From a virus, in the IMG/VR virus record IMGVR_UViG_3300025769_000158, positions 1 through 53,296 of that record: a DNA stretch of 53,296 bases; one strand, written 5' to 3'. The translations under genes and the position numbers were made by a program. Positions 19,336-51,455 of the stretch are shown in pieces. Position 1 is the first letter of the stretch; each line of letters opens with the position of its first letter. Under the pieces are notes generated by a model. That model made no database searches and had not been told where the DNA came from. It saw only the letters and a list, made by a program, of their open reading frames with translations.

Positions 19336-20192
19336 AGACAGTAAACTCATTAAGTGGAGGTAAGACCTCATCATATATTGCGGTGCACTACCCCGCGGAC
19401 TACGATGTATTTTCTTTGGTGCGTACCGATGACAAAGCATGTTTGTTTCCTGATCCCAAGGTTAGGCAGATAGTAAGTGATAAGCTCGGAAAGGAGTTTA
19501 TAGGAACCCTTGAGCAAGATGAAATCATATATACCATACTCGATCTTGAGCAGTTCATAGGAAGGGAAATACATTGGGTAACCGGACCCACCTTTGATGA
19601 GGTCATCGTTAGGGGCGAGCGTAAAGAGGGAGGCGCATACATATACCTTCCAAATGTTACGCAACGCTATTGCACAACCGAACTAAAGGTCAACCCCATC
19701 AAGCAATGGTGCTATGAGAATATGGAGTTGCCTATAGATATGCGCATAGGATTTAGAGCGAATGAAATCAAGCGTGCAAATTCAATGATGAACCGCTATC
19801 GCGAAGATGGATATCAATGGGACAAGTTTATTATAGGTAAGAGTAAGACCGGGAGAAGCAACAGGTATAAAGAGATGGCCTATCGTGTGTGTTCATTCCC
19901 TCTTATACATGACAACATATATAAGGATCAGATAGAATCCTATTGGAAAGACAAGCCGGTGCGCTTTGCCTACCTCAACAATTGTGTGGGCTGCTTCCAT
20001 AGAAACGAGATGCTCCTTAAACATATGTCGGATAAAGAACCTAGTAAGTTTGACTGGTTCGCAAAGCAAGAGAACGACAAAGCAAGATTTAAAAAAGGGG
20101 TGAGGTATGAAGATATCAAGTCCTATAAAATGCAATTTCAATTATTCGATGAAGACTTTAACGAATGCGATAGCGGATACTGTGGACTATGA
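19332..20192 (+). CDS. PAPS reductase-family ATP pyrophosphatase
   Basis: 286 residues from the ATG at 19332, which overlaps the methyltransferase stop (ATGA). N-terminal NSLSGGKTSSYIA is the SGGKTS PP-loop of the ATP pyrophosphatase/PAPS reductase fold. Cysteines occur at QRYCTTELK, in C-x-x-C at NNCVGCFHRNEM (about 223) and at the extreme C-terminus (DSGYCGL). True sulfate assimilation is unlikely in a phage this size. The coupling to a DNA methyltransferase makes a DNA-modification or sulfur-transfer role more likely. Family assignment is firm; substrate is unknown. Confidence 0.8.
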   Translation: MKTVNSLSGGKTSSYIAVHYPADYDVFSLVRTDDKACLFPDPKVRQIVSDKLGKEFIGTLEQDEIIYTILDLEQFIGREIHWVTGPTFDEVIVRGERKEGGAYIYLPNVTQRYCTTELKVNPIKQWCYENMELPIDMRIGFRANEIKRANSMMNRYREDGYQWDKFIIGKSKTGRSNRYKEMAYRVCSFPLIHDNIYKDQIESYWKDKPVRFAYLNNCVGCFHRNEMLLKHMSDKEPSKFDWFAKQENDKARFKKGVRYEDIKSYKMQFQLFDEDFNECDSGYCGL

Positions 20193-22979: not shown

Positions 22980-23310
22980 GTGTAGTCGATGTCAAAAGAA
23001 AAAACCTGCGAGTGAATTCCATAAGAGCAATACACGACAGGCAGGTGTCCAGAGGTATTGCAAGGAATGCAAAAGGTTGGTGGACCGCAATGGCAAAAAG
23101 GCCCACAATGGAAAGTACATCGTATACTACCTACCTAAAGAAAGGTATGTCGGCATGACTCAAAACTACAGGAAGCGAATGTACAAGCATAAGATCAGAG
23201 GCCGTAATACCCGGGGCAGTAGGATACTACTTATCACTGGGAGCAGTAAACTTGCCCACCTATTAGAAACATTACTACACCTAGTAGGTTACAAAGGGTT
23301 TCGGTACTAG
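22963..23310 (+). CDS. Zinc-ribbon GIY-YIG nuclease-like protein
   Basis: 115 residues. The N-terminus has CSRCQKKKPASEF and YCKECKRL, two C-x-x-C pairs as in phage zinc ribbons. Then GKYIVYYLPKERYVGMTQN..KRMYKHK supplies YIVYY for GIY, RYVGMT for YIG and the conserved arginine; a later glutamate (HLLETLL) could complete the site. Either a homing-type nuclease or a small recombination nuclease. It ends the early unit; its stop codon overlaps the convergent lysis-type gene's stop. Confidence 0.65.
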   Translation: MMSLHKCSRCQKKKPASEFHKSNTRQAGVQRYCKECKRLVDRNGKKAHNGKYIVYYLPKERYVGMTQNYRKRMYKHKIRGRNTRGSRILLITGSSKLAHLLETLLHLVGYKGFRY

Positions 23311-23316
23311 CCGAAA
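23299..23316. terminator. Inverted repeat at the convergence point
   Basis: TTTCGG-TACTAG-CCGAAA is centred on CTAG, in which both convergent stop codons (TAG on each strand) overlap. The 6-bp stem may act as a weak bidirectional end; no T run follows. Confidence 0.4.
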
Positions 23317-23774
23317 TCAATGTATGTGATGGTTACTTCTTCCCCTTCTTCAATCGCTTTAGCAATCGGAGGGTAAATTCTTTTGTACGAATTAACACTT
23401 GAACCAATGAACCCATCACTATCACCAAAATTCGTTTGTTGACTATCACCAACAATGAGGCACCCAGCAGTATGCTCGTCAGTATTACCAGTGTGAATAA
23501 GAATATACTCGAAGTTAGGGACATCGCGAACCCATAACATTCCTTTGTGCATTTCCCCATACTTGCTTTTGTATCGCCCATGGAACCCACCGACTGTTCG
23601 TAATGTAATCTTATAGGTTCCTGCCGGAACGCGTGTCTCCGCCATGACCTTCACATCTCTATGCTCATCTTCTAATGTATAGCACAAGAACTCACGCTTG
23701 CCTCCGGTCACATCAAACAACAAACCATTTGTGCTATCGGCTTGACTGCTAAATCGTAGTACTTCTAATTCCAT
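23307..23774 (-). CDS. DUF5675-like protein, putative peptidoglycan-active
   Basis: 155 residues. FLCYTLEDEHRDVK, VPAGTYKITLR and the segment LIHTGNTDEHTAGCLIVGD are characteristic of DUF5675. The H-x-G-N...(S/T)xGC arrangement resembles L,D-transpeptidase-type active sites, though catalysis is unproven. It overlaps the holin-like gene by one base, so it is a candidate endolysin or cell-wall enzyme. Confidence 0.7.
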   Translation of the reverse strand: MELEVLRFSSQADSTNGLLFDVTGGKREFLCYTLEDEHRDVKVMAETRVPAGTYKITLRTVGGFHGRYKSKYGEMHKGMLWVRDVPNFEYILIHTGNTDEHTAGCLIVGDSQQTNFGDSDGFIGSSVNSYKRIYPPIAKAIEEGEEVTITYIDFG

Positions 23775-24232
23775 TATTTATCTGTGTCTTTAATTGCTGC
23801 TCCAAAGTAATATCCAAAGATCGAAAGTGCTACACCTTCAACGATACCTATTAGATGAATGAATATCTCTTTGTTTTCTTTAGGCACATCAAGGAATACA
23901 ATCGATAAGACAAGGAATGCAAACGCACCTAGACCCACAAGTCCCGTTACATTAAACAACCAATCTTTAGCACCGGCCTTTACCATATCGGCTTGGCGCT
24001 TACGGGCACTGTCACGATCAGCAACCTCGAGTTCATACATCTTCATTAGTTCGGCGTGAAGTTCAGCACGTTCCTCGGGAGTCATTAGAGGAGACTGCTC
24101 CTTACTATCGATAAGGTTCTTTACAATACCTAGCGCCCCTTGATCAGGTAGCAAGTCCCCCACCATCTCGAGGATGTGAGGGGCTTTGTCCTTAAGTAAA
24201 CTACCTATCTTACTGTCTTTAATTTTTTTCAT
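23774..24232 (-). CDS. Holin-like membrane protein (3TM-holin type)
   Basis: 152 residues. A charged helical N-terminus (PEERAELHAELMKMYELEVA; DRDSARKRQADMVKAG) precedes WLFNVTGLVGLGAFAFLVL and IFIHLIGIVEGVALSIFGYY, two clear TM segments. This resembles the gene-transfer-agent/phage '3TM' holin family. The start overlaps the giant gene by 14 nt and its stop is coupled to the DUF5675-like gene, a holin-enzyme pair. Confidence 0.7.
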   Translation of the reverse strand: MKKIKDSKIGSLLKDKAPHILEMVGDLLPDQGALGIVKNLIDSKEQSPLMTPEERAELHAELMKMYELEVADRDSARKRQADMVKAGAKDWLFNVTGLVGLGAFAFLVLSIVFLDVPKENKEIFIHLIGIVEGVALSIFGYYFGAAIKDTDK

Positions 24233-27200
24233 TTAGTTTTTGATTAATCATTTCTTGTCTACGCTTGTACCACTCAAAGACTTTTCTATTACCGTCTTCT
24301 AATGTGATGTAACCGGTAGAGTATTTACCATTTATCTTTCTTAAGATGTTAATCTTTTGCTCGTCCGTAGCATCCTTCCAAAGAGATGTGTTAATCGTAT
24401 TTGAAAGGTCCTTGGTTCTTTGTTGACCCAGCAACATGAGCAGTTCGTTTACTTCCCCGGTAGAGAAATTGATAGGCTTTGAACCTTTATCAATAACCAT
24501 TCTCTTATTAAGAATTAAACTAGGGATAGAAGGTAATGCGTCTTCATCTCCTGTTCTTTTGTACAAGTTGTACAACTCAACCTTTAATGGGTCGTCGGTC
24601 GCGAGTCTTGTACCTGTAGGGTCAAGGAATTCATAGAATACAGGGTTTGTTCCCGGAGGAGTTTGATTAATCTTCTCACCCCATACATTAATACGGATAG
24701 GAGCCGGGTCATCACCTCGACCGAAGACACCGAAGGTTCTATCGTACACAACATTCATGAAGCGTTGATCGAAACTGTTGTCTCTATAGTCTGGTAGGAA
24801 CTCACGCTCCGCTCTAAAGAATGAAGTGAATAAGTTAGGTAGTGGAACGGCAACCATCGCCCGCGACAACTGCTCAAAGTATTTAGAAACCACGTTGACA
24901 TCCTCGGTATTCTGTAACAACTTGGTCATGTTCTCAAGACCTGTGAGGAACGACTGATCAAGCAATGCTCCAAGTGAACCTAGTGTAATGCCTAGACCTT
25001 GCTCTAGGAATTTACTAATAGCGCTTTGCTCATCAATACCATACTCTACTAGTTCTTCTTCCGTTGAGAAATTAGGCTTTCTATCAATAACCTTGAAGGC
25101 CTCAACATATGCAGCCATCACCGCTCCATACAATCCTAGTTTAGCAAACCCAATTCTACGATCAGAAGGTTGGAATGGCTCGCCTACCTCACGGCCTAGT
25201 GCCGAGACATTGATGGTAAATGGAGGCTCCACTTCGTAGGCTACACTACGAGCTTTAGGACTCAACTTATCTACGGCACCACTAACCGCTCCTTTGTCAT
25301 ACAACTTACGAGCATATAAGAATAGCATGTACCCCATGATAGCCGTGGCTAGTTTCTCTGATCTATCACGAGCGGATATTCCAGGAGAGAAGGCTTGTGC
25401 AAAAGTGATAGGGAACAGTGTAATCTCTAGCGACTGTGACAAGATGTTAAACGGAGTCTTTACAAACGGGAAGTTTGATTTGACCAAGAACTTCACAGCA
25501 TTACCAAACATACGGGTAGTGTAACTATCGCTAGCCAATGCTTTAGCACCTGCCTTATTAAATATATTTTGTACTTGCTGTGTATCAACCAACCCAAACA
25601 ATAGAGTACTATCATTCTCTTGGAAGGTTAACTTCAATCCCTTTTCTCTAGCGATTTTAAAGTGTTGTTCCGTAGGATACTTTAAGAATCTTTTTAACTC
25701 TTCACCCTCTAGGCCCAATCGTTTACCTTGTTGATATAACTCGTAACCTTCCATACCTCTATAGAATGGGCGGTCACCAAGAACAAGCAACTTAAAGTTT
25801 GATGATGCCGTGATACCAAAGATTCCTTCAAAGAGTTTCTTTGCCTTGAAGTTGATATAGTCTACTTGACTATGGAACTCTTGAGGAAGGCTGTCCTTCC
25901 CGCGCCCGAACACAGTAGCCAGGGCAACGAGTGGTTGTAGTTGATGACCCGAAGTGTATTCAAAGTCCCCGGGAGCTTGACCCGTCTTGATGGCCTTCAT
26001 TGATTCCTTTAATCCATAGAATGCACGCTGCGCCCCGTATACCATAGCGCCAAATGAAGGGCGGAGTTCACGGTTTCTAGGGTTGATCATGTACTCTATT
26101 GGAGCAGCAATGGCCTGCTGAATCAATCTTCCCGGCAATGTCAAAGCATTCGCTACGACGTTCGTTGTAATAGAGCGAAGCGTCAACAAGTTACCTTGCA
26201 TGATAGTAGAGAGTAATGTCCCCCACGTAGGAGCATTGAATTTTTGGAAGTCATTGAGAGCACCGATAGCATCTTCAAGTCTCTTTTGAGATTCCTCAAC
26301 TAGTTTGTCTAGTGTATCAAACTCTTCGGGATCAGCATCTAATACCTTATCTACATTTGAATCAAAGGCATCCTTCGCTGCGATGTATTCTTCAACAATA
26401 GTTGTGAGGTCTTCTATCGCATCTTCCTTAAGAGGAGTTCCCTTTTGCTCATACTCATTTGTGATGAGTGCAACCATACCTTCCGCGGTCTTGCCTTTTA
26501 TCTCACCGAATTGACGGAGCAGTTGTCCAAAGGTAGTACCCATCTGTGTCAACTTCGCGAGCTCGGCTTTGTATCCTGTGATGTCCCCCTCCTTACGCAA
26601 CCGCTCAAGGTATTCCACTTGTGCAAGTACAAGGATGTTTCCATCGGTATTGAAGTCTAGCCCACCACTCACTGAAGTGATGTCACGAAGTGTGTTGGTA
26701 TTCAAGGTGGCTACCACTTGTGCGGTAGACATCCCTGAAAGATTCTCTTGGATATCTCCTATGCTTTGTGGTTCATAGAAGAACTCTGATGCTTCCTCAC
26801 CCGGCTTGAGTCTACCTTTTTGAGCACGACGTGCGGCATTGAGAATGGACTCACTAAAGGCTACCTCTTGAGGCACGCCTCCTTTGAGCATGTCCACGAA
26901 TTTCTCCGTGGCCTTTCTCATCTTTAGAGCAGCCCTTCCGGTAGCGTCGCCATCACCTCCGGGTGTACCTGTCTCGGCACCTGTTCCGCTAGGTAAATCT
27001 CCTCCAGCCAATTGTCCTTCGTCAGCGACTTGCCCTTCCGTAGCAGTTCCTTCGCTATCAGTAGGTCGGTACCAACTAGGGTGTTTAATATTTCTTCCTC
27101 TTGGCGTGTCTGTGTCTGTGTCTTTTTCATCAAAGTATTTTTTAATTTCATTTTGTACATCTGCAATATCTTCTCCCTTATAGTCATTGTAGATTTTTGC

Positions 27201-30200
27201 AATGTCTGATCTACTAGTGTTATCACGAAGGGTTGATGGCATAAACAAACGAATGACCTCCCATGTAATAGATTGCATCTCACGAGGAAGGATGCCTCTT
27301 TGTTTGGCCGCTTCAACATAAGCGTCAAGGTAGGCCCAATAGTTTCCTGACAATGCATTAACGGAAGACGACATGATACCCGCCCCTCCAAAGTTTTCAT
27401 TTACGGCGGCGCTTGATTGTCCGTAAGGCATAAGTTCTGCCGCGGCAACAGCATGGGTGTCCATAGTAACATCACCATCCGTAGCGTCTGGGTTAGCGAT
27501 GTTATTGTAGAAGTGTCTAATCTTATGGCTACCACCGAGCAGTTCACTGATCATAGCGATGTCGTTATTCTCAAACATCATCACAGCCTTCGCCATGTTA
27601 GAGAAACTTTGAGTGACTACCTTTCTAGGTGAACCATCCTTTGTAGTATATGTTCCTAGGTCATCACCAATAGGGCTATACACTTGTACAGTGTCAGGCA
27701 TGTAGACCTCTCTATAGTAGCGGATAAACTTGGCTTTCTCTAAAGCATCCATACTATTAAGAGTTCTTCCTCGAAGAGCATCCATGGAATCCTTGAAAGA
27801 ATCAAAAGCAACACGGTCTTTCTTCAATAGTTTTGAAGGGGTCATTTTCTTACCCTTCGCCTTCTTCTTGTAGACTTTGCTATTGGCTCCGGTTTGACGG
27901 AAGGACTCTAGTTTTCTTTCGATGGCCATGTTGTACATGGTGTCATCGAATGTAGACTCTTGATTGTTGAATAGAACCTCGGCAATGTTGTAGGCGTTTT
28001 GGATATTGATAAACCAATCCGCACCAGGAGATAGTGCCGCTAGTATACCCGCGGACTGCTCAACCGAAATGTCATACTTGCTGGACATGTCCTTGGCAAT
28101 CTTGTTCGCCCCATCATACCATCTACGCATGTACTCGCGAACCTCGGGATCGGCAAGATCGTGAAGGAATAATAGGTTAGAAACCACGCGATCCTTGAAT
28201 ATTTCGTACACTCCATCGGCCCATTCTTTTTGGCTTTGGAGTTTTACCGAACCTTTATCGATGGCGCTTTGTGGATTTAACACCACCATGTTTTGTACAA
28301 GGCGAGGGCTTTTAGTTTCGTCTGCTTGATTGTCCGCAAAAGACACAGCATCAAAACCCGCGGCCTCAAGAGCACTAAAGTATTTCTTACGCTCTTTCTT
28401 GTTAAGTATAAATGGAATATCCTCTAAAGGAATTTCTCTAGCCTCCGTACCTTCTATGTCTATCAACATAAAGAACATAGAATCACCTTGGGCATCGTAT
28501 TGAGCCATCTTTGCCGGGAACAGTTTCCTTGCCACCTCTAATGCTTTTTCTTCAGAGGCTACTCTTGACTCTTGAATATATACCGGGTTGAGTAGTTTGC
28601 TATCAACACTTTCTCCTGGGTCTTGAAGGCGTAGGTAATCCATCGCCTCTCCTTCCTCGGGAGAAATGTAAAGAGGTCTATCGTTAGAAATATCCTCAAG
28701 TCCATAACCACCATGGTAAGCAGTGACCATACCCTCTCTAGAGTAGTCCTCTTTAGGCATCTGATCAATGAAAGAAGGAACCTCTACATCAACCATCAAC
28801 GGGTGGTTTTTAGTATTTGTAAGAGCTACGGCGTGGTCTACATATATAGGTCTAACATTTTTGTTAGCCGCAGGTATCTCACGCACCGTTGCTGACGACA
28901 TATCAAATACATCTGTAGCAACCCCTCGGCTTTTCGCGATGCCTTGACCTACGCGTTTACCCGCAACGATACCTTCTTTAAGTTTGTCTATCGAGGCTTG
29001 ATTTAATGCGGCGCGACCATCTAACAATTCATTGCGTGACTGATCAATCTTCTCGGCTACTTTTTGTTGGAACAGTTTGTTATCTATCTCTGCATCGATA
29101 CCTTCTTCTAGGTTGACTAGGTGTTCACTCATGTAAGATAGGTAGTCGATACGTTGCAATGGATCAGCGATGTTGTCGGCATCAGCAAGTAGTTGATTCA
29201 TTGTTTTAGGAACACGCTTACCCGTAAGGTACCAAGTCACATCCGAACCAAAGTTTCTAGTGTATGCTTTGTATTCTTCTTGTTCAATATTAAATACTCT
29301 ATTTGATGGGCGTGCGCTAGGGTCTAAAGAGAACGTCTCTAGGTACGGCTCTACACTTGAACTGTTCTCATCCTTATCCAAGAAGGTTATTTCTTTTAGG
29401 CTAACCGCAGGTGCCTCGAGATCGATTAGGTCAAACATAATCTTTCTCATGCCCTCATCAAACTCAATCATACGCTCTCTATCCAAGAAGCTCTCGGCGT
29501 CAGCGATACTTTCAATCTCTGCCGGCTCAACACCATATGCATCTTTGTAAAGGGTACGAGCATACAAGATATCCCCAAGAGGCATCATTGATTTTCTAAT
29601 GAGTTCTTTTGCTACTTGGTTTGCTCTTTTCTTATCACCCGTGCTAGAAACAATATGGTTGTATATCTTAACAGCATCTAGGTAGGTGGCATGGTATATG
29701 TTATCATTGTAACTGCCCAAGCCAGGAATCCATCCTATGCTGTCCGGGTGCATATGCGTTCTATATAGCGCTCGGTATTCTTCACTGTCCAAGAAGCCGG
29801 TTGTATCTTCTCCCGTTCTACGAATCTCTGCGCCCTTCATATATGTTTCAAGCGCCTCTAGAGGCAAGCCTTTAACGGGAGCGTATGACATTGCTCCGGC
29901 CTCAATAATATCTTGATAGACATCGCTTTCATCTAGAAGTAAACTCTCATCGCCATCTAGATACTCATTGATATCATCTGCATATACATGTCCTTGGAGT
30001 TCTTCGTTTTCGTAAATACCTAGAAGTACCATGTCGTCACCTATAAGAATCATCGGTGCCTTTGTAACTCCTTGTATGAGCAGTTCTTTATGGATTCCGG
30101 AGATGTCGTTTAATACTTCTTCAGCAAGGAACTTATCTCCTCGTGTACCATCAATGCCTCCGGGGCGTCCGGTACCACCCGTTACGGTAGACCTTCTAAC

Positions 30201-33200
30201 CGTGGTCCCACGATCAGGCATCAAAGCAAAGAACCTAGGCTGTAGTGATTCTCCTGGATTGAGTTTATCTATCTTTGGACTAGACTGTAGTTTACCTTCT
30301 TTCCAATTCTCGGTATACCCTTCTGCAGTACGAGGCATAAAGAACCCACCCGTAACGATAGGTAGACGGAGGTTTCTAGAGGAAGGAGTGCCGTCGGCTT
30401 TCTTCCCTTTTATAGACAGGTCTGTTTCTGTTTTATAAGTATTCCAATCTACATAGGTTTCTATGTTGTACTCCGTATCTTCTTCTAAAGCTTGATTAGC
30501 AATCTCAAAGACCTCAACAGCCCCGAGTCTCATGCCTACGCTAGCATCAATTTCTCCCCATTGATCAGGAAGTAGGTTTAAGTCTTCGATGTCACCCATC
30601 GCCTCAATAGCCTCTTCCTCCGTAGCATATACTATATCCTCTCCATAGTTTTGTCTTCGCTCCCAATATTCACGAGAAGTGAAAGCAAATGTTTCGCCAC
30701 TCCCTTTAAGGTTTAACTGCTTTATAGTTTTAGCGTCGAGGCCTAGAATGTCTGCAAGCATTAAGATGCTAGCACGGCCACCGTCCGAGACCGGTTGTGT
30801 TCTATATGGTTGGCTTACACGTTGTTTGATAGGCTTACCTAGTCGCGTTGCAATAGCAAAGGTTTCCGCTAACTTGGTAAAGGATGTATCATCCGTGATT
30901 GTTAGTTTCTTAAGACCAATGGCAGTAAGGGCCTTGTTAATGATACGTCTTAACTTACCTCTTAATGAAGCGTCGATTTGATTTAGGTTGGTAGTGTAGC
31001 CGGCAAGCACCTTCATCACAACCTCTTCTTGGACCATTGCTTCTATTGCGGCATCACTCATGCCTAGACTCTTTCCGTATGCGGTGTATGCAGCGCTGAT
31101 CGCCTCAACATCCACACCTAAAGAACTGTTCTTTTTTGCTAGGTCTAGAACTTCACTATATAATCTTCCACGAACTTTATCATCCGACATGATGCCTCCA
31201 AAGCCTGCGTGTGCAAATTCTTCTTTGATGACAGCATCACTCGAATCTATAGTAAGGTGGATGGTGTTTGTGCCAAATTCATAAAATGCCTCTAGACCTT
31301 CTTGACCTAGAGCGGCGTTAAGGTCTTCGGTGTTGTTCCAAAAGACAACATTTACATCCTTGCCTATATTATCACTCAAGGCTTTAACAAGACCGTTCAC
31401 TGTTTTAGCAACACGCTCGGTGATTCCTTTTCTAGGAAGTATGTTCTTGACTCTAGAGCGAAGCGCCGGTTGTGGACCTTTAGGTGCTGCTTCCGTTGGT
31501 GGCGTTGGCGCCTCCTCGACAGGAGTTACGGGTGCTTCTTCGGCTACCGCTTCCTCTGTAGTTTCTTCAATTGGACCCCCAACAAGTTCTTCGTTGGTGT
31601 CAACAATAATCTCATCAAGACTTCTTGTGTCCTCTTGTTTTGATTTTGGCTCGCTAAACAAGAAGGCAACCTCTTGAGCTGTGTCCCCTCTAAATGTTCT
31701 GTTTCGACCCTTTGCATCTTTTAATGTGACGCTAACAACCTCACCCTGATCATTGAAGTTTACCGACTTCTTACCACGAGGAGCAGTGTATTGCTTGCCT
31801 CGTATGGTAAATGATCCGTCCTCATTGAGGCTACTTTCAATCGTGCCAAACCCAGCATCTTCAAATGTCTGATCGCCAATGTCTTCAATGTTTCCAATCT
31901 CGGTAATGTTTCCATTAGCCTCAATAATAGATACCTTTCCTCCCTCATCTACTTGGACAAGTCCTCGAACAATACCTGTAGGTAATTTCACTACGGCTTG
32001 TTGGTTAAGGCTCTCACTTATTGTTGGGGTTACAGGAGCCGGTGCTTTAGTAACGGGTGTAGGTGCTACTCCTTCAACAGGCACCTCGACTGTAGGTGCT
32101 ACTTCCGTGCCAAGAGGAGTCTCACGAGCAGGCTCTCTGTTAACGATTTGTTTTATTTCTCCATAGATGCGACCTATCTCTTCAACCTTTGCTTTGTAGC
32201 CAGGCTCATTTTTCTTGAAGCTTCGTAGTTCCGCAATATGGTTTACTAGGTTATCGGACAGTTCTGCTACACGAGCGCGTTCATTCTCGGGAAGGTTTTG
32301 TAGCGTCTCAATATTTCTATTGAGCGTAGTATACTTTTGCTCTTGTAGTTTTCTAGCATTCTCTCTATGTGTAGCACGTGACTCACGAGTCTTTGCTTTA
32401 CGAGCGGCTTGACGTTGCTCCTTAATCTTCTGATCTATAGCGGTCACTTCTCCATAGTTCATGGTCGTTGCCACCGTTGTAAGTTCATGAGCATCTTCAG
32501 CCATAGTAGCAAAGCGGATATAGTCTGCCTCGGCTTGACTTATATCTTTATTCTTTATTGCTAGGTAGGTTTGAACGGGAGCAGTTTGAATCCCTTGACC
32601 TATAAATTCAAGGGCAATACCCTTAAGGTCATAGATGGTTCCTGTCTCCGTCAACTGCCCCAATGCCTCACCCGTAGAACCGGCAACGCCTTCAACCGTC
32701 TCCGTCAACAATCTAGATGTAGTTGTAGAATATCCCTTCTTTAAAAATTGCTTGAGTATAGCACCTCCAAAACGAGCAGTCACCGCATCGACAATAGCGA
32801 TAGGGATACCCTTCTTTAACCCACGCTCGCGTGCCTCACCCATAACTTCCGGGTCTTGTGTAGCACGTAATAGTTCTTCAGGGTTTGTGGTATCAAGTCC
32901 TAATTCATTGAAGACCTCTAAAATCTTTGATGAATATTCTAACGCAAGACCTTCACGACCAAATGCAACAGGAGCAAGTGTGCCACCTGAAGCCACAGAA
33001 ACTCCAATGTTTACCGGGTCGATCATGCCTGCCCACATTGCCGCTACCGATTCAAGGACCGGGCTAACAACACTAGACAATACAACATCAACTCCCTTTA
33101 AGAATCCATTATCTGTGTCCCAAGAAACCGCTTGGTTCTCACGCAATAGTTTTTGATAGTATGCAAGTGCTGTAAAGTCTACCTCATGAGTATCAATCAA

Positions 33201-34088
33201 TGGGTCAAACATATCCGCTTGACGCTTACTGATCATCGCTCTATTGTAAAAACGAACAAGGTCCTTTCCCACACCAGCCTCTTGACCCGGGGCATTCTCC
33301 TCATCAATCAACCAAAAGGAATATATATCTTCCCCGGGAGTTAGGTATCCTTCATATAATGTATTATGATTAGCAACCTTTAAACCAAGGTCTTCCGCGG
33401 CCTGATCAACATCCATGCCTTTATCCAACCAATAAGCCACATTGGTTGCTTCTTGAGCGGCACCCTCAAAGTCGATAACAGTCTTGTATCGCTCTTGATT
33501 CTCTATAGTGATACCCTCTTGTTCTAATGCTTGGGCAGTGTACTTGCCGTAGTCGTAGATATAGGTCTCATTAAATATTTGATTTAGAGGCTTCTTTTCT
33601 TCTTGAGAACGCTGCACCATTTGATTGGTAGCCTGCTCCGCCTTCTCATCACTATAACCTAAATACTTGTAGGTGTCGTATGCTTGTTGGTAAGATACGT
33701 TAGACATATCTTCAACCAACTTCTTTTGCTCTTCTTCAAATACCTTTTCTTCAAGAGCATTCTTTTTACCTACCGCGGACTCACCGCTATAATCATACCC
33801 TAGACCTCCAGCGTATTTCGAGTCTTCCGATTTTGAAAACCCAGTCTCTTCCACTGCTTGTTGATAAAGCTCTTGAGATGTAGGAAGTTGGATTTGCTCT
33901 TCTTTTTTTTTTACAAATTCAGAACGAAGTTGTTCCATAGCAGGCTCCATATCTACCATGGAGTAACCATTCATAATACCGGTACGAAAAACATTGTTCT
34001 CATACTTGGTTAATTCTTCTTGGGTCTCAAGGTTAAAATAATCATCACTAAATTGACCGCGTAGATATTCTAGAATTTCTTCGTTCAT
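24219..34088 (-). CDS. Giant polyvalent virion (cargo/ejection) protein
   Basis: 3,289 residues, 18.5% of the genome. Visible regions: helical N-terminus (1-330); charged coiled coil (about 560-640); Pro/Thr-rich linkers (about 650-690 and 840-880); a metallopeptidase-like domain (about 895-1000) with FYEFGTNTIHLTID and KEEFAHAG, in which the first zinc histidine is replaced by lysine; an ADP-ribosyltransferase-like domain (about 1785-1930) with TAYHGG, PLYISPEEGEAMDYL, GFDAVSF and NMVVLNP; a helical segment with VEQSAGILAALSP (about 2010); acidic/glycine linker near 2340; and a C-terminal helical part with NFPFVKTPFNIL (about 2870) and hydrophobic stretches. This fits phage polyvalent proteins carried in the head and delivered into the host. 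I see no DxDGD RNA polymerase motif. Confidence 0.75.
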   Translation of the reverse strand: MNEEILEYLRGQFSDDYFNLETQEELTKYENNVFRTGIMNGYSMVDMEPAMEQLRSEFVKKKEEQIQLPTSQELYQQAVEETGFSKSEDSKYAGGLGYDYSGESAVGKKNALEEKVFEEEQKKLVEDMSNVSYQQAYDTYKYLGYSDEKAEQATNQMVQRSQEEKKPLNQIFNETYIYDYGKYTAQALEQEGITIENQERYKTVIDFEGAAQEATNVAYWLDKGMDVDQAAEDLGLKVANHNTLYEGYLTPGEDIYSFWLIDEENAPGQEAGVGKDLVRFYNRAMISKRQADMFDPLIDTHEVDFTALAYYQKLLRENQAVSWDTDNGFLKGVDVVLSSVVSPVLESVAAMWAGMIDPVNIGVSVASGGTLAPVAFGREGLALEYSSKILEVFNELGLDTTNPEELLRATQDPEVMGEARERGLKKGIPIAIVDAVTARFGGAILKQFLKKGYSTTTSRLLTETVEGVAGSTGEALGQLTETGTIYDLKGIALEFIGQGIQTAPVQTYLAIKNKDISQAEADYIRFATMAEDAHELTTVATTMNYGEVTAIDQKIKEQRQAARKAKTRESRATHRENARKLQEQKYTTLNRNIETLQNLPENERARVAELSDNLVNHIAELRSFKKNEPGYKAKVEEIGRIYGEIKQIVNREPARETPLGTEVAPTVEVPVEGVAPTPVTKAPAPVTPTISESLNQQAVVKLPTGIVRGLVQVDEGGKVSIIEANGNITEIGNIEDIGDQTFEDAGFGTIESSLNEDGSFTIRGKQYTAPRGKKSVNFNDQGEVVSVTLKDAKGRNRTFRGDTAQEVAFLFSEPKSKQEDTRSLDEIIVDTNEELVGGPIEETTEEAVAEEAPVTPVEEAPTPPTEAAPKGPQPALRSRVKNILPRKGITERVAKTVNGLVKALSDNIGKDVNVVFWNNTEDLNAALGQEGLEAFYEFGTNTIHLTIDSSDAVIKEEFAHAGFGGIMSDDKVRGRLYSEVLDLAKKNSSLGVDVEAISAAYTAYGKSLGMSDAAIEAMVQEEVVMKVLAGYTTNLNQIDASLRGKLRRIINKALTAIGLKKLTITDDTSFTKLAETFAIATRLGKPIKQRVSQPYRTQPVSDGGRASILMLADILGLDAKTIKQLNLKGSGETFAFTSREYWERRQNYGEDIVYATEEEAIEAMGDIEDLNLLPDQWGEIDASVGMRLGAVEVFEIANQALEEDTEYNIETYVDWNTYKTETDLSIKGKKADGTPSSRNLRLPIVTGGFFMPRTAEGYTENWKEGKLQSSPKIDKLNPGESLQPRFFALMPDRGTTVRRSTVTGGTGRPGGIDGTRGDKFLAEEVLNDISGIHKELLIQGVTKAPMILIGDDMVLLGIYENEELQGHVYADDINEYLDGDESLLLDESDVYQDIIEAGAMSYAPVKGLPLEALETYMKGAEIRRTGEDTTGFLDSEEYRALYRTHMHPDSIGWIPGLGSYNDNIYHATYLDAVKIYNHIVSSTGDKKRANQVAKELIRKSMMPLGDILYARTLYKDAYGVEPAEIESIADAESFLDRERMIEFDEGMRKIMFDLIDLEAPAVSLKEITFLDKDENSSSVEPYLETFSLDPSARPSNRVFNIEQEEYKAYTRNFGSDVTWYLTGKRVPKTMNQLLADADNIADPLQRIDYLSYMSEHLVNLEEGIDAEIDNKLFQQKVAEKIDQSRNELLDGRAALNQASIDKLKEGIVAGKRVGQGIAKSRGVATDVFDMSSATVREIPAANKNVRPIYVDHAVALTNTKNHPLMVDVEVPSFIDQMPKEDYSREGMVTAYHGGYGLEDISNDRPLYISPEEGEAMDYLRLQDPGESVDSKLLNPVYIQESRVASEEKALEVARKLFPAKMAQYDAQGDSMFFMLIDIEGTEAREIPLEDIPFILNKKERKKYFSALEAAGFDAVSFADNQADETKSPRLVQNMVVLNPQSAIDKGSVKLQSQKEWADGVYEIFKDRVVSNLLFLHDLADPEVREYMRRWYDGANKIAKDMSSKYDISVEQSAGILAALSPGADWFINIQNAYNIAEVLFNNQESTFDDTMYNMAIERKLESFRQTGANSKVYKKKAKGKKMTPSKLLKKDRVAFDSFKDSMDALRGRTLNSMDALEKAKFIRYYREVYMPDTVQVYSPIGDDLGTYTTKDGSPRKVVTQSFSNMAKAVMMFENNDIAMISELLGGSHKIRHFYNNIANPDATDGDVTMDTHAVAAAELMPYGQSSAAVNENFGGAGIMSSSVNALSGNYWAYLDAYVEAAKQRGILPREMQSITWEVIRLFMPSTLRDNTSRSDIAKIYNDYKGEDIADVQNEIKKYFDEKDTDTDTPRGRNIKHPSWYRPTDSEGTATEGQVADEGQLAGGDLPSGTGAETGTPGGDGDATGRAALKMRKATEKFVDMLKGGVPQEVAFSESILNAARRAQKGRLKPGEEASEFFYEPQSIGDIQENLSGMSTAQVVATLNTNTLRDITSVSGGLDFNTDGNILVLAQVEYLERLRKEGDITGYKAELAKLTQMGTTFGQLLRQFGEIKGKTAEGMVALITNEYEQKGTPLKEDAIEDLTTIVEEYIAAKDAFDSNVDKVLDADPEEFDTLDKLVEESQKRLEDAIGALNDFQKFNAPTWGTLLSTIMQGNLLTLRSITTNVVANALTLPGRLIQQAIAAPIEYMINPRNRELRPSFGAMVYGAQRAFYGLKESMKAIKTGQAPGDFEYTSGHQLQPLVALATVFGRGKDSLPQEFHSQVDYINFKAKKLFEGIFGITASSNFKLLVLGDRPFYRGMEGYELYQQGKRLGLEGEELKRFLKYPTEQHFKIAREKGLKLTFQENDSTLLFGLVDTQQVQNIFNKAGAKALASDSYTTRMFGNAVKFLVKSNFPFVKTPFNILSQSLEITLFPITFAQAFSPGISARDRSEKLATAIMGYMLFLYARKLYDKGAVSGAVDKLSPKARSVAYEVEPPFTINVSALGREVGEPFQPSDRRIGFAKLGLYGAVMAAYVEAFKVIDRKPNFSTEEELVEYGIDEQSAISKFLEQGLGITLGSLGALLDQSFLTGLENMTKLLQNTEDVNVVSKYFEQLSRAMVAVPLPNLFTSFFRAEREFLPDYRDNSFDQRFMNVVYDRTFGVFGRGDDPAPIRINVWGEKINQTPPGTNPVFYEFLDPTGTRLATDDPLKVELYNLYKRTGDEDALPSIPSLILNKRMVIDKGSKPINFSTGEVNELLMLLGQQRTKDLSNTINTSLWKDATDEQKINILRKINGKYSTGYITLEDGNRKVFEWYKRRQEMINQKLNEKN

Positions 34089-45952: not shown

Positions 45953-45977
45953 AAGAGGGGCTTGCGCCCCTCTTTTT
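45953..45977. terminator. Bidirectional terminator
   Basis: AAGAGGGGC-TTGC-GCCCCTCTT, flanked by A-rich sequence on the left and TTTTTATTTTT on the right. It serves the plus-strand moron and the minus-strand gene at 45976-46830. Confidence 0.88.
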
Positions 45978-46830
45978 ATTTTTCGTCTCCTTCACCGTAT
46001 TTTCTTCGCCACTCATCAACAGCAGCCATACGAGCGTCTTGGTATACACCTTTTTGTTTTGCCATCTCGACGACCTCATCATACGAACCCATGCCCATAT
46101 TGTTGCCATCGGTAACGGCGTATTTACCTCCAACACCGGCCTTACGTAATGCCTCCATAAGGTAGCTTTTGGTAATCATCTCTAGGTCTTTTAAGGCTTC
46201 GGATTTCTTTTTAGGATCGTCATCAACCATCCCCCCGTCTTCGTATTTAGAGAGTAGGCTCTTTGCCATCTCACGTTGTTTCGGGTCATCTAGCAATGCT
46301 TTTAACATACCACCGCTAGCATACATTTCTTTCATTGAGCCACCCTTACCGTATTCGGTCATGCCTCCTTTGGAATATTTTACTTTCATTTTACCTCCGT
46401 TTTCAAATCTTTTATTTCGTTTTCCTTTTTTGTTTTCTCTTGACGCAGCCTCTTCTCTCATGCGTTGCACATCTGGGTCATCATCAAATGGATCAGAACC
46501 ACCAAACATGCTAGAGCCAAATTCACTGTCAAACGAATCCATTAGACTTGGTGCTTTCACTTCCTTAAGAGCTGGGTCTACAGAATAAGAATCCATAGCC
46601 TCATTGCTTTTGTGAGCTTTAGCATTAAGGAACTTCTCAACTTGTTCCGCTCTTTGAAATAAGTCTAGGTCTGGAAACTCTTTTACCAAGTACTCATCAA
46701 AAGCGATTAAGCGATCAGCCTCTTCACCCATGAAATGCATATCGCCTATCTTATAGGTAGACCTACTTTCTGGTGAAGTCTTTGGTGGATCGACTGGGCT
46801 TTTACCTCCCTTGTTGTATTTTACTTTCAT
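45976..46830 (-). CDS. Glycine-rich structural-type protein, unknown
   Basis: 284 residues. The N-terminus MKVKYNKGG recurs internally as MKVKYSKGG, and several GGM units with Tyr/Lys follow (KGGMTEYGKGGSMKEMYASG; YEDGGMV). Such KGG/DGG repeats are common in virion proteins of Bacteroidota phages. Acidic middle, helical C-terminus. It has a -7 box only 4 nt before the ATG. Confidence 0.6.
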   Translation of the reverse strand: MKVKYNKGGKSPVDPPKTSPESRSTYKIGDMHFMGEEADRLIAFDEYLVKEFPDLDLFQRAEQVEKFLNAKAHKSNEAMDSYSVDPALKEVKAPSLMDSFDSEFGSSMFGGSDPFDDDPDVQRMREEAASRENKKGKRNKRFENGGKMKVKYSKGGMTEYGKGGSMKEMYASGGMLKALLDDPKQREMAKSLLSKYEDGGMVDDDPKKKSEALKDLEMITKSYLMEALRKAGVGGKYAVTDGNNMGMGSYDEVVEMAKQKGVYQDARMAAVDEWRRKYGEGDEK

Positions 46831-46834
46831 AAGA

Positions 46835-46842
46835 CAAAAATA
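46835..46842 (-). promoter_or_regulatory. -7 box (TATTTTTG) next to the start codon
   Basis: TATTTTTG is followed by only four bases before the ATG at 46830, so the transcript would be leaderless or nearly so. Confidence 0.45.
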
Positions 46843-47659: not shown

Positions 47660-47842
47660 CTACTTGCCTTTCACAGCGTCTACAACGTCCTTGACTTCCT
47701 TTACAGTCTTCTTGTAGCGAGACTGTGCTTCTCTCAAGGCCGCTATAATTTTTTCATCAGCTTCGGTGTAGCCAAACCAATAAGCCCAAAATCTTTTGTG
47801 TGTCTCCTTAATCCAGAGCCAAAGTACTTTCAAGTGTTTCAT
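47660..47842 (-). CDS. Small aromatic-helical protein
   Basis: 60 residues: an amphipathic aromatic N-terminus (HLKVLWLWIKETHKRFWAYW) and a charged helix (SRYKKTVKEVKDVVDAVKG). It could associate with the inner membrane. It starts 1 nt after the stop of the TM protein upstream and is the last of the coupled sensor operon. Confidence 0.55.
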   Translation of the reverse strand: MKHLKVLWLWIKETHKRFWAYWFGYTEADEKIIAALREAQSRYKKTVKEVKDVVDAVKGK

Positions 47843-47843
47843 C

Positions 47844-48170
47844 TTACTTTTCTTTCATGAAGTTTAGGATGCTGTCCTTACGCTTTTCCTTTAAAGCCTG
47901 TTCATTATCTCGGAACAACACAAATGCAAATATAAGCAATGCTATGATAATAGCGAAGAAGGAGGGCACCATCCAATATTGCAAATTATGAGACAATCCG
48001 TCAAAGTCTTGTGTTTTAGCAATATCGTAATCCGCATCCTTATGTACCCATACAGACTCCCAACCCTCCTCGGTACTATAATGATAGTCAACTACTACAC
48101 TGTCTCTATACACAGCATAGTGAGCTTTGACGCTATCGTAGTTCCAATCAGCTTGTTTTTTCTGTGGCAT
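47844..48170 (-). CDS. Single-TM protein of the sensor operon
   Basis: 108 residues. A soluble N-terminal part with aromatic/aspartate motifs (DSVVVDYHYSTEEGWESVWV) is followed by one TM segment (VPSFFAIIIALLIFAFVLF, about 68-88) and a basic tail. The start overlaps the upstream coiled-coil gene by 23 nt. The N-terminal domain may lie outside the membrane; topology is not certain. Confidence 0.6.
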   Translation of the reverse strand: MPQKKQADWNYDSVKAHYAVYRDSVVVDYHYSTEEGWESVWVHKDADYDIAKTQDFDGLSHNLQYWMVPSFFAIIIALLIFAFVLFRDNEQALKEKRKDSILNFMKEK

Positions 48171-48717
48171 ACTTCACACCCATTATTGTACCTATAATAC
48201 TAAAACTGTTCGTTAGTAAGATACCAAAAAGATTGCTCCAGGCATTACCTAGTATTGTGGTGTCCTTGTCGGCAAGGATTGCTGTGGTATACATCAAAGT
48301 TGTAGTGACGCCAACTCCTATAATTATGATCAGGGCAACCCTTACGATTAAACCTATAAGTTCAAACTGCGTTCTTTTTTGTAGAAGGTCGAGGTCTTCA
48401 ACGGCTTCATCACGAAGTTTCTCTGCTTCCGCTTTAGCATTCTTCGTTTCTTCCAAAGAGTTTTGCAACTCAATAACAAGAGCCTCCTTAATTACAGAGG
48501 CCTCCTCTAGTTCTTTGTTTTGCTTTTGAACTTGCTTGGTAACATCAAGACGTCTACGCCGGGCTTTAGCATCACGGTCCTTGCATTCCTCTAGGTATTC
48601 CTTGACATCGGTAGGTAAAGACTTCGATAATATCTTTACAAAGTTTCCTTCTATGTAAACCTTTTTAGATTTTGCTTTACGCAAAGCCTCCTCTACCGTG
48701 TCCTTACCATTTATCAT
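48148..48717 (-). CDS. Coiled-coil protein with two TM segments
   Basis: 189 residues. Residues about 45-115 form a long charged coiled coil (LDVTKQVQKQNKELEEAS; ETKNAKAEAEKLRDEAVEDL), then two hydrophobic segments: IGLIVRVALIIIIGVGV (about 123) and LFGILLTNSFSIIGTIMGV (about 165). The start overlaps the response regulator stop in ATGA. It could be an output partner of the response regulator or part of a membrane complex controlling lysis; this is inferred only from coupling. Confidence 0.6.
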   Translation of the reverse strand: MINGKDTVEEALRKAKSKKVYIEGNFVKILSKSLPTDVKEYLEECKDRDAKARRRRLDVTKQVQKQNKELEEASVIKEALVIELQNSLEETKNAKAEAEKLRDEAVEDLDLLQKRTQFELIGLIVRVALIIIIGVGVTTTLMYTTAILADKDTTILGNAWSNLFGILLTNSFSIIGTIMGVKYATEKTS

Positions 48718-49151
48718 TTGTATACCTTAAACGGGGCAGTTTTGTTTTTATAGCCCTCATAGTCTTTTAAGAATTCTTCTAGTCGAGGTTCGATCTCGTC
48801 ACTCTTAATAATCCAAAATTGAGCGCCCACATCTTTAGCCTTGTCTATTTCTTGGTTGTCGTCCGAGGAAGATATGATTCCGATAACCACGCCATTACCG
48901 TAGTCGGTATTAATCTTACGGATCAGTTCAATCCCATCAAAGCTAGACCCTATAATGTTAAGGTCTACAAAAACACATTTAGGTCTTTCTTCTATCGGAC
49001 CATCTTCAAACCACTTCTTAAATAAACGATCAGCCTCATCAGAAGAGTTTAATGCTTCTAATGACAATGTCATGTCAAGAAGGCTGCATGCATCTTCAAA
49101 TACGAGGTGGAAGAGGTCTTCGTCGTCTACGAGTAGTATAGAGTCTATCAT
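48714..49151 (-). CDS. Single-domain response regulator
   Basis: 145 residues, a CheY-like receiver without an output domain. All key residues are present: acidic pair in LLVDDED (about 9-11), phosphoacceptor aspartate in CVFVDLNI (about 62), Ser in GIISSSDD (about 95) and lysine in FWIIKSDE (about 115). It would accept phosphate from the adjoining kinase and signal by protein contact. ATGA overlaps on both sides. Confidence 0.85.
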   Translation of the reverse strand: MIDSILLVDDEDLFHLVFEDACSLLDMTLSLEALNSSDEADRLFKKWFEDGPIEERPKCVFVDLNIIGSSFDGIELIRKINTDYGNGVVIGIISSSDDNQEIDKAKDVGAQFWIIKSDEIEPRLEEFLKDYEGYKNKTAPFKVYK

Positions 49152-50380
49152 TTTAATTCTATCGTTATTTTAGTTCCTTGTTCTATTTTACGAGCGGAGA
49201 TTTCAAATCCGTGTTCTTTAATTATGGCAACACATATGTTTAGTCCTAACCCGGTGCCTTTCTCTTCTTGCTTGCCCCTTGTGTAGGGTTGAGAGTATTC
49301 TTCAAAATCTTCTTGGCTCATGCCGCGACCATTGTCTTCAATGACAATAGACTGCTCATCCCCCATATAGATGGAAACCTTTTTTGTATGACTGTCGTTA
49401 TACTTAAGGCCATTACGGATCAGGTTGTCAACGGCAGTACAGAACAACGCTTCGTTTATTTCATAATCTATTAAATCCTTTATCTCTACCTGGCTTATAT
49501 AAGATGTAGATGAAAGATAGTTAATCAATACTTCTTTTAGGTTGAGGACCTCTTTTTCTAATTGAGTGTCTTTCTTTACCAGGTTGGTAAACTCCTTAAC
49601 CCCTTTATATACTTTTTGAGTATGTATAAGCCCCTCTTGAATCATCTTTAAAGGAGGACCTATCTTTAGTTTTTTTATGTCTTCTTCTTTTAGCCTACGC
49701 TTTAAAGAACTCAATCCCCTAGGTATGTATGTGTTGATGCCACTGTGCATGTCGTGACGAAGTATCTTTGCGGCATGCTCTAGATATCCATTCTTCTTAT
49801 GGATTTCCATCTCAATGATCTTCTTATCGGTAATGTCAGAGGCAATCTTAAGTATCCGGTATACTTCCCCATATGGATTCTTGATAGGGTTGTAGTTCCC
49901 ATATATCCAAAACTCGGTATAGTTCTTCCCCATCCTTTTGAACTCCCCTGATCTAGCATAACCCTTTTTTAGTTTTAACCAAAAGTCCTTGTAGTAAGCC
50001 TCGTTTAAATCAAGAGGGGTAAGCATCTTGTGATTCTTTCCTATGAGTTCATTCATAGTATATCCCGACATCTCACAGAACTTATCGTTACACGATATGA
50101 TTTTTCCATCAAGATCAAACTCTACAAGAGCATTGGACATATTTATTGCAGAGAGGGTATCGTCAATAGATTGAAACTTATAGCGGACCTTACGAACAAA
50201 CTCTACAAGCACAAAAAAAAAGAAGGGCATAAAGGAGATTACACTAACCCATCCAAACACAGCACTGTCGTAAGTAACCTCGGAATATCCGATAACTAGA
50301 GCAGTTTGGTATGCGAAGAAAACAAGCATGATTCCTATCGCAAGAACTATAGATATCCTAGAGGCTATTGATAGTTTCAT
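49148..50380 (-). CDS. Membrane sensor histidine kinase with PAS domain
   Basis: 410 residues from the ATG at 50380, chosen because the stop of the upstream TM gene overlaps it in ATGA. Two TM helices (about 8-30 and 42-62) flank a very short external loop. A PAS domain (about 78-185) has ALVEFDLDGKIISCND, MSGYTMNELIGKNHKMLTP and a closing ASDITD. H-box: LRHDMHSG (His near 209). ATPase: N-box DNLIRNGLKYND, G1 EDNGRGM, F-box YSQPYTRG, G2 GTGLGLN. All catalytic boxes are intact, so it should autophosphorylate. With almost no external domain, it probably senses membrane state or a cytoplasmic signal through PAS. Confidence 0.9.
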   Translation of the reverse strand: MKLSIASRISIVLAIGIMLVFFAYQTALVIGYSEVTYDSAVFGWVSVISFMPFFFFVLVEFVRKVRYKFQSIDDTLSAINMSNALVEFDLDGKIISCNDKFCEMSGYTMNELIGKNHKMLTPLDLNEAYYKDFWLKLKKGYARSGEFKRMGKNYTEFWIYGNYNPIKNPYGEVYRILKIASDITDKKIIEMEIHKKNGYLEHAAKILRHDMHSGINTYIPRGLSSLKRRLKEEDIKKLKIGPPLKMIQEGLIHTQKVYKGVKEFTNLVKKDTQLEKEVLNLKEVLINYLSSTSYISQVEIKDLIDYEINEALFCTAVDNLIRNGLKYNDSHTKKVSIYMGDEQSIVIEDNGRGMSQEDFEEYSQPYTRGKQEEKGTGLGLNICVAIIKEHGFEISARKIEQGTKITIELK

Positions 50381-50535
50381 TTTTCCTTTTTCTTGCCCAA
50401 CAGGTACCACCTTTGTATGGTGTAACCTATTGAAACTATTAGTAGAAATATCTTTAAGTAAAGTTCTACTTGAGACATAGACACACTAAATGTGACTGCG
50501 TTTAGAGCATATACTTTCAAATCTTCGTGCGTCAT
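50377..50535 (-). CDS. 52-residue single-TM protein, holin-like
   Basis: A soluble start (MTHEDLKVYALNAVTFSVSM), then one TM segment (YLKIFLLIVSIGYTIQRWY) and a lysine-rich end. Both ends overlap neighbours in ATGA: the lysozyme-like gene before it and the histidine kinase after it. Small one-TM proteins of this form in phages act as holins or antiholins, but so could many small membrane proteins. Confidence 0.65.
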   Translation of the reverse strand: MTHEDLKVYALNAVTFSVSMSQVELYLKIFLLIVSIGYTIQRWYLLGKKKEK

Positions 50536-51413
50536 TTTTTCAACTTGTTATAGGCTTCCATATCTCTTTCAAAAGAAGACTTACGCTTTTGGGCGTCTTT
50601 CTCCGAGCCTGCCCAATGATATTTTAGCCAATAGTCCGTAAGAGACATTTCATCGTTTAGATACTTCCCTAGATCAGCGGATGGATGCGCTAGTTGATTC
50701 ATAAGGAAGAGGTACTTTTGTTTTTCTAGGTCTACTTGACTAGCGTCAAAAGACTTTTCAGGATAGTATTGTTTAACCCACTCCGGGGTTTTGTATTCAG
50801 CAAGTTCCGGGAAGGCTGTTTCTTTTCCTTCGGTGATGTTGTAAGCCCTATTGATTGCTATGATACCACCGCCCCCTGGTTGAGATTCAAATTGGAAGGC
50901 ACCTCTACCGGGTCCTCCTCCCATTTGTTTTTTGGCGGGGTCACTCTTGCTTTCGTGATACATGATTTTATTCATCATGTCTTCAAGCTTTTCTACTGAT
51001 CCCCCCTTCTTTGAAACGATGTACTCGAGCAGTTCTTGGTAGGTCAACTCTTCTCCCGGAGGAGGAACCGATCCGCCATCCTCATACTTCTTTACCTTTT
51101 GAGATTTAGGTGGAGATTTTTTACTTCCTCCTTTTCCTGCCCAAAAGAATTTATCAGCCCAGTATGCGGCAGACATTTTTCCTTTTTTAATATTCTTTCC
51201 GTGGCGAGCTTTAAATGATTTGCGAGCGGCATCCGAATAATTATGCCCCATCTTCTGATCGCCAAATCGGATGATACGAACCTTATTGCCCTCCTTTGCT
51301 AGAACCATCCCTTTCTTTGTTGGGTGGTTAGGCGTTCGCTTGGGTTTGTTAACCCCTTTAAGACCGTGCTTTTTGAGCAGTCGCTTGATTCTATCTCTCA
51401 ACTTACTATCCAT
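50532..51413 (-). CDS. Virion-associated lysozyme/transglycosylase-like protein
   Basis: 293 residues. The basic N-terminal third (KVRIIRFGDQKMGHNYSDA; KSFKARHGKNIKKGKMSA; AYWADKFFWAGKGG) matches a short basic virion module found in phages. The C-terminal half has NKIMYHESKSDPAKKQMGGG and PGRGAFQFESQPGGGG: an H-E-S with candidate catalytic glutamate and the G.G.FQ(F/I)E motif of lysozyme-like transglycosylases, then FLMNQLAHPSADL. It probably cleaves peptidoglycan, either at entry or at lysis. It opens the sensor operon; a -7 box lies 4 nt before its ATG. Confidence 0.7.
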   Translation of the reverse strand: MDSKLRDRIKRLLKKHGLKGVNKPKRTPNHPTKKGMVLAKEGNKVRIIRFGDQKMGHNYSDAARKSFKARHGKNIKKGKMSAAYWADKFFWAGKGGSKKSPPKSQKVKKYEDGGSVPPPGEELTYQELLEYIVSKKGGSVEKLEDMMNKIMYHESKSDPAKKQMGGGPGRGAFQFESQPGGGGIIAINRAYNITEGKETAFPELAEYKTPEWVKQYYPEKSFDASQVDLEKQKYLFLMNQLAHPSADLGKYLNDEMSLTDYWLKYHWAGSEKDAQKRKSSFERDMEAYNKLKK

Positions 51414-51417
51414 TGCA

Positions 51418-51425
51418 CAAATATA
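51418..51425 (-). promoter_or_regulatory. -7 box (TATATTTG) next to the start codon
   Basis: TATATTTG and four bases precede the ATG at 51413. This is the only strong promoter-like box seen for the lysozyme-sensor operon. Directly behind the terminator at 51433-51455. Confidence 0.55.
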
Positions 51426-51432
51426 AAAAGAA

Positions 51433-51455
51433 AGGGGTCACGTTTTGTGACCCCT
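51433..51455 (-). terminator. Rho-independent terminator (minus strand)
   Basis: AGGGGTCAC-AAAAC-GTGACCCCT on the minus strand followed by TTTCTTTTT. It ends the fibre 2 unit. The 97 nt between it and the gene at 51553 hold nothing recognisable. Confidence 0.88.

Follow-up and report, generated by a model that had tools for sequence, protein, structure and literature searches.

The viral record IMGVR_UViG_3300025769_000158 from IMG/VR, analyzed here over its whole length of 53,296 bases (the window), encodes on its minus strand a histidine kinase (HK), a single-domain response regulator (RR), and a coiled-coil protein with two transmembrane (TM) segments (CC), which together form a unit that we call the triad. 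We consider it slightly more probable than even that HK-RR-CC is a virus-specific two-component switch gating a membrane effector, most likely for the timing of lysis, and lysis is the leading inference for the function of the triad. A fuller version, to which we give a little less than even credence, describes a virus-owned phosphorelay that leads diverse signals over a near-invariant RR to an inner-membrane effector setting the lysis time, being shared by unrelated Bacteroidota phages and once captured by a bacterium, where the output was rewired to a kinase. What can be read from the sequences is the set of parts, their order and conservation, their horizontal spread, the swapping of sensors, the recurrent proximity of lysis genes, and a chromosomal fusion of the CC module to a kinase.

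Searches of IMG/VR returned at least 592 relatives of the kinase, at least 393 of the receiver, and at least 145 of the CC protein, with 503 for a divergent receiver query. The triad is found on hundreds of viral contigs, which are up to 430 kb long. Among 298 loci, including that of the window, HK is present in 291, RR in 296, and CC in 290, and the loci missing one member are all cut by a contig end, except for L256. In this locus (36-1451), an endolysin gene lies directly before RR, at the expected position of HK and at the contig start. The order HK-RR-CC is found throughout 185 nonredundant loci, RR and CC being separated in some cases by one or two genes. HK and RR are coupled by an ATGA overlap in 124 of 180 loci, and RR and CC by ATGA or TAATG in 123 of 179. 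An earlier note on this DNA had drawn a block of five genes, with a lysozyme-like protein and a one-TM protein preceding HK, RR, and CC. Essentially all relatives keep HK-RR-CC, and the conserved unit is this triad and not the five-gene block with its flanking “lysozyme” or TM genes. In a similarity search of cultured phages, RR and CC have no match beyond chance, and HK has partial PAS/kinase matches only.

The mean pairwise identity over 157 triads is 77.5% for RR (minimum, 60), 64% for the HK core, and 55% for CC. The ratio of nonsynonymous to synonymous polymorphism (pN/pS) in close pairs is low for RR (0.08), the HK core (0.12), and CC (0.17), indicating purifying selection. The phage backbones are less uniform, with matches to the window capsid in 9 and to its terminase in 11 of 44 triad-bearing contigs, some of which are fragments. 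The contig of L025 shares only 23% capsid and 38% terminase identity with the window, but its RR is 88% and its CC 87% identical. For L072, the capsid is 59% and the terminase 72% identical, but the RR 79%. The similarity of RR and CC is therefore out of step with that of capsid and terminase, indicating that the triad moves between phage backbones.

The neighbors of the triad that could be named with profile libraries include Phage_holin_4_1 (above its cut-off), PG_binding_1 with Amidase_2, DUF5675, a PHROG endolysin domain, PG_binding_1 with GH19, Peptidase_M15_3, and Phage_holin_10. In flavophages, GH19 combined with a peptidoglycan-binding domain is the proposed endolysin (PMC8776804). Whole contigs were scanned, with proximity defined as a distance of at most 4 kb from RR. 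The holin PF05105 lies within this distance in 10 of the 11 contigs carrying it (2.2 expected), DUF5675 in 8 of 14 (2.5 expected), and a PG_binding_1 endolysin in 13 of 27 (2.7 expected), the last set including contigs of 100 to 430 kb. The control, terminase, is within 4 kb of RR in none of 11 contigs, the nearest being about 19 kb away. Counting four lysis families only, 39 of the 91 well-flanked loci score. The arrangements differ by lineage, examples being amidase-holin-small TM-HK-RR-CC, DUF5675-small TM-HK-RR-CC, HK-RR-CC-2TM-DUF5675-holin, and HK-RR-CC-GH19, which suggests that the association with lysis genes probably arose several times. The link to lysis proposed in the earlier note is supported at the level of the family, where, in several unrelated lineages, the proximity of lysis genes to the triad well exceeds chance. 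We discarded the idea of a universal lysis adjacency: it holds in many lineages, not all, and a neighbor scan of the unlabeled loci added only a few lysis enzymes.

The HK of the window is composed of a two-TM hairpin with a short loop, a PAS domain (PAS_3, 51 bits), DHp, and HATPase_c (PF02518, 63 bits). The putative phospho-acceptor is His209 (CAC, 49756-49754) inside the motif RHDMHSGIN, and the ATPase boxes DNLIRNGLKYN, EDNGRGM, and GTGLGLN are present and conserved in relatives. The RR matches Response_reg (PF00072) with 32.4 bits against a cut-off of 30.2. Its receiver residues D9, D10, D63, S94, and K116 are invariant across 36 diverse sequences, with D63 being the predicted phospho-acceptor, and its 145 amino acids (aa) hold a receiver only, without a DNA-binding domain. 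The earlier note had described all kinase boxes and receiver residues as intact and the two proteins as a complete coupled sensor-regulator pair, and both descriptions agree with our results. For this translationally coupled kinase-regulator pair, which is complete, phosphotransfer is predicted.

The motif RHDMHSG is found in 166 of 166 kinases with a readable DHp motif and is preceded by at least five sensor types: a hairpin only, a hairpin with PAS as in the window, tandem PAS without TM segments, GAF/PAS-like multidomain forms, and domains of about 200 residues between two TM segments, where domain names other than PAS were assigned by eye. The varied N-terminal parts before a constant RHDMHSG suggest that the sensor is exchanged while the transmitter-receiver pair is kept. 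Intramembrane-sensing kinases have two TM helices with fewer than about 25 residues between them and no periplasmic domain. This architecture is seen in the window HK and most of its relatives, with a median spacing of the hydropathy cores of 20, and some family kinases have sensors of another type. The short hairpin loop suggests that the input comes from the membrane or cytoplasm, not from outside. In the PDB, the PAS domain best matches a sensor protein (3ewk) and the receptor Aer. We rejected FAD-type redox sensing by PAS as the general input, since several relatives are without any PAS domain. In some loci of large phages (L231, L241, L246, and L263), two kinase-like genes precede RR, the RR-proximal kinase having a long inter-TM domain.

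The N-terminal module of CC is helical/coiled-coil, with the motifs EG... and R..RLxVTKQVQxQNKEL, and is followed by a two-TM hairpin (WSNxFGILLTNxFSIxGTIMGVK). In the AlphaFold2 (AF2) model, the coiled coil and the first TM segment form one long helix, which is followed by the second TM segment. The hairpin has charged ends and a glycine-containing, strongly conserved second TM segment, and it ends every complete viral CC. A Foldseek search of the fold against the PDB gave no significant match, and the single viral fold match is an unnamed protein, 48% identical, from an uncultured phage. CC was also considered as kin of the neighboring two-TM or Phage_holin_4 proteins, for which the profile comparison was negative.

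A scan of 84,980 prokaryote species yielded two triad loci only, L218 and L219/L304. L218 is located on a metagenome-assembled contig that encodes PhoH and that we regard as phage. L219/L304 lies on a Bacteroidota chromosome contig encoding TonB plug, SusD, CreD, and sorting-domain proteins, and we therefore dropped the assumption of a strictly viral distribution without exception. In L304 (5709-9090), an HK with RHDMHSG is followed by an RR that is 69% identical to the window RR and then by the CC N-terminal module fused to a second histidine kinase. The module makes up the first ~110 residues of this 349-aa protein, in which a HisKA-like region and HATPase_c replace the membrane hairpin. The module residues E24, G25, K29, Y42, D50, R54, R57, L58, T61, K62, Q65, Q67, N68, and L71 are common to 14 of 14 aligned sequences. 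About 690 sampled Bacteroidota genomes gave, besides L304, weak partial matches only. In a midpoint-rooted tree, the chromosomal HK and RR nest within viral branches (support, 0.97), making a capture from a virus likely. The N-terminal module thus occurs on two different outputs and is always encoded after RR, suggesting that it is probably the RR-receiving domain, with the hairpin being the viral output.

These data bear on two other explanations. The triad might be a passenger, composed of host-derived signaling genes without a particular phage function, whose clustering with lysis genes would come from chance insertion into late operons. Phages often carry host genes, and several small genes around the triad vary, but we regard this as extremely improbable given the hundreds of viral contigs, the strong purifying selection, the invariant active sites, and the scarcity of prokaryotic copies, the chromosomal one being nested in the viral tree. 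HK and RR might also be accessory tuners of host pathways, with CC serving only as an anchor; RR would then either target a conserved host protein or serve as a phosphate sink. Such a role is possible for single-domain regulators that lack a DNA-binding domain, and RR is the most conserved member of the triad, as expected if it is bound to a conserved host partner. However, on every contig of sufficient length RR is accompanied by CC, whose own invariant module is joined to a kinase in the chromosomal copy, and this makes host tuning quite doubtful.

In the mechanism that we propose for the lysis switch, the variable sensor, a membrane hairpin plus PAS in the window, would set the phosphorylation of RR on D63. 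RR would act not through DNA but by protein contact, its target being the coiled-coil module at the N terminus of CC, which is translated next from that message and is predicted to be an inner-membrane protein with two TM segments. This contact would change the membrane hairpin of CC as the output, which most likely promotes or restrains holin/endolysin lysis, as a trigger or a brake, and lysis timing, or a response to superinfection or energy state, would then follow a cell signal. In this scheme we infer phosphotransfer, the RR-CC contact, the action at the membrane, and the effect on lysis with its direction.

Several points weigh against a switch for lysis timing. The Pfam HisKA model does not match the DHp of the window, and CC matches no holin family profile in Pfam, PHROG, and other library scans. 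Relatedness among the contigs means that the chance estimates overstate the significance of the proximity, for which the 4-kb limit was fixed only after the data had first been viewed. Roughly half of the triads are without a recognized lysis gene within about 4 kb, some lie in other contexts, e.g., that of ribonucleotide reductase, and the chromosomal copy is outside any lysis context. In the window, no gene adjoining the triad is confirmed as a lysis gene, and the nearest recognizable lysis-type gene (DUF5675) is 25 kb from the triad. The relay could be real and its output another membrane decision, such as superinfection exclusion, an envelope-stress response, or a host-signaling block, with the lysis genes being late envelope neighbors. 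The many triads away from lysis genes, the chromosomal copy, and a CC unlike known holins are all consistent with this alternative; yet the adjacency recurs upstream or downstream, with different endolysin types and in several unrelated lineages, and for terminase not at all, so that we consider it somewhat unlikely, though a serious contender. In a stronger form of the lysis reading, CC is itself the holin, and its class II-like hairpin, gated directly by RR phosphorylation, produces the lethal membrane lesion. The two-TM hairpin with its charged ends and conserved glycine-containing second segment would fit, as would the position beside lysis genes in many lineages. Separate holin-family genes often adjoin CC, however, and its dissimilarity to holin profiles also speaks against this form, leaving it unlikely.

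By its parts, HK-RR-CC is a two-component system; it is new in being carried by viruses, in its constant core and membrane output, and in the genes around it. The Caulobacter protein DivK is a single-domain regulator acting on DivL/CckA. DivK-type systems resemble the triad in leading from a kinase over a single-domain receiver to a protein partner, which is itself a kinase in the chromosomal homologue, whereas the triad is virus-carried and a fixed three-gene operon, with a viral partner ending in a two-TM hairpin, a near-invariant transmitter, and freely swapped sensors. In T4 lysis inhibition, RI and RIII act on the holin T, with no kinase or phosphorelay; if the lysis reading is true, the outcome would be analogous, with a sensed signal resetting the lysis time. 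Holins are viewed as an intrinsic clock that mainly sets the time of phage lysis, and few sensory inputs are known. If our reading is true, a complete two-component system with swappable sensors and a constant output, found across hundreds of uncultured viral contigs, would put lysis timing under the control of a signal in a major group of environmental phages. The frequent location of the triad beside lysis genes suggests that the cell state is sensed before bursting. The triad is also a rare viral signaling family whose chromosomal homologue points to the partner of the regulator, making the RR-CC step directly testable.

In CtrA-dependent lytic deferment, alphaproteobacterial phages use the host regulator via DNA sites (PMC9437464). 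Lytic progress is likewise tied to two-component signaling there, whereas the triad virus brings its own kinase and a regulator without a DNA-binding domain. The Clostridioides difficile phage phiCDHM1 carries agrD-agrB-agrC, with AgrC lacking a regulator (PMC3901668); it shares with the window a phage-carried histidine kinase but differs in having host-type quorum-sensing genes and no response regulator. The divergent receiver domains of jumbo phages are linked to NAD/ADP-ribose enzymes and, as reported, are never part of histidine kinase systems (PMC7824862). They resemble RR in bringing a receiver fold into phages, but the HK-RR-CC receiver is kinase-paired. In the full text of open-license papers, whose silence is not proof, we found no virus-borne kinase-regulator pair tied to lysis.

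In the window, the minus-strand genes from 51413 to 47660 follow each other nearly without gaps (Table 1). The five open reading frames of the earlier note (293, 52, 410, 145, and 189 aa) are all present, with the four ATGA overlaps at 50535-50532, 50380-50377, 49151-49148, and 48717-48714, and the described overlap of 23 nucleotides (nt) with the next TM gene is also found. Of 30 minus-strand genes, 10 have a TAnnTTTG box in the 40 nt before their start, versus 0.62 expected, and no such box lies ahead of TM1, HK, RR, or CC. A hairpin and a box before the first gene, with no box before the next four, make one message likely, and the earlier note's proposal that the five proteins are made from a single message fits these positions. 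The boxes at 46835, 47248, and 51418 (minus strand) lie only 4 nt before the ATG of three minus-strand genes, which suggests leaderless or very short-leader transcripts. The 60-aa protein at the operon end has no relatives among the family loci.

Table 1. Features of the triad operon and a DUF5675 gene in the window
Position	Strand	Feature	Description
51433..51455	-	Hairpin	Intrinsic terminator-like, just upstream of operon
51418..51425	-	TATATTTG	Bacteroidota-type -7 promoter box (TAnnTTTG), 4 nt before first ATG
50532..51413	-	Unclassified protein	293 aa; N-terminal phage domain phrog_7595 and rare all-alpha C-terminal domain
50377..50535	-	TM1	52 aa, one TM segment
49148..50380	-	HK	410 aa from ATG 50380; alternative GTG start possible at 50410
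48714..49151	-	RR	Single-domain response regulator, 145 aa, PF00072
48148..48717	-	CC	Coiled-coil two-TM protein, 189 aa; proposed effector (alignment, AF2 model)
47844..48170	-	TM6	One-TM protein directly after CC, 23-nt overlap
47660..47842	-	60-aa protein	Operon end
23307..23774	-	DUF5675	87.9 bits; family adjoins triad in other phages

The lysozyme-like label that the earlier note gave to the 293-aa protein is not borne out. Pfam, NCBIfam, PDB, phage tblastn, and viral-contig scans gave no lysozyme family or fold match and nothing significant that is muralytic, the sole significant match in these searches being to an unnamed protein from the phage MEP301 (E, 2e-5). With its C-terminal part modeled by AF2, Foldseek gave nothing significant in the PDB. 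The protein could be the lysin of this phage; its slot holds Amidase_2 or DUF5675 genes in relatives. Within the clade of the window, the slot upstream of TM1 is occupied by Amidase_2 and a two-TM protein (L024), by DUF5675 (L007 and L008), or by the unclassified protein, and the close relative L024 has the order Amidase_2 endolysin, two-TM protein, TM1, HK, RR, and CC. TM1, found in 60 of the 298 loci, retains its place ahead of HK in the clade to which the window belongs; its PHROG holin match is marginal (E, 0.047). TM6 is found in 78 of 298 and is retained by part of the family. With an unclassified “lysozyme,” a marginal holin match, and the DUF5675 gene far away, the lysis-like cassette that the earlier note described is not proven for the window itself.

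The portal, terminase, capsid, and muzzle proteins of the window have relatives in Cellulophaga phage phi38:1 and in phages of Flavobacterium, with about 30 to 33% identity for the portal. The window also has a GroES-type (cpn10-type) gene, of a type counted among the Pervagoviridae core proteins (PMC8776804). By these sequence matches, the window is a phi38:1-like flavophage. The likeness to phi38:1 and Pervagoviridae extends over portal, capsid, terminase, and cpn10-type genes, whereas HK-RR-CC was not found by similarity search there or in other cultured phages.

Adhesin-like paralogues are located at both contig ends (238-1212 and 51771-53294, minus strand), matching phrog_10356 and PF09206. 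Together with the gene order, these paralogous end genes suggest that the contig ends abut, as they would in a circular or permuted genome. The minus strand also encodes a protein of 3,289 aa with a DUF7178 match (24219-34088) and a protein with repeated K-Y-x-x-G-G-like motifs (45976-46830; KYNKGG, KYSKGG, EYGKGG, and MYASGG). A PAPS reductase-like gene lies on the plus strand (19266-20192) amid replication genes.

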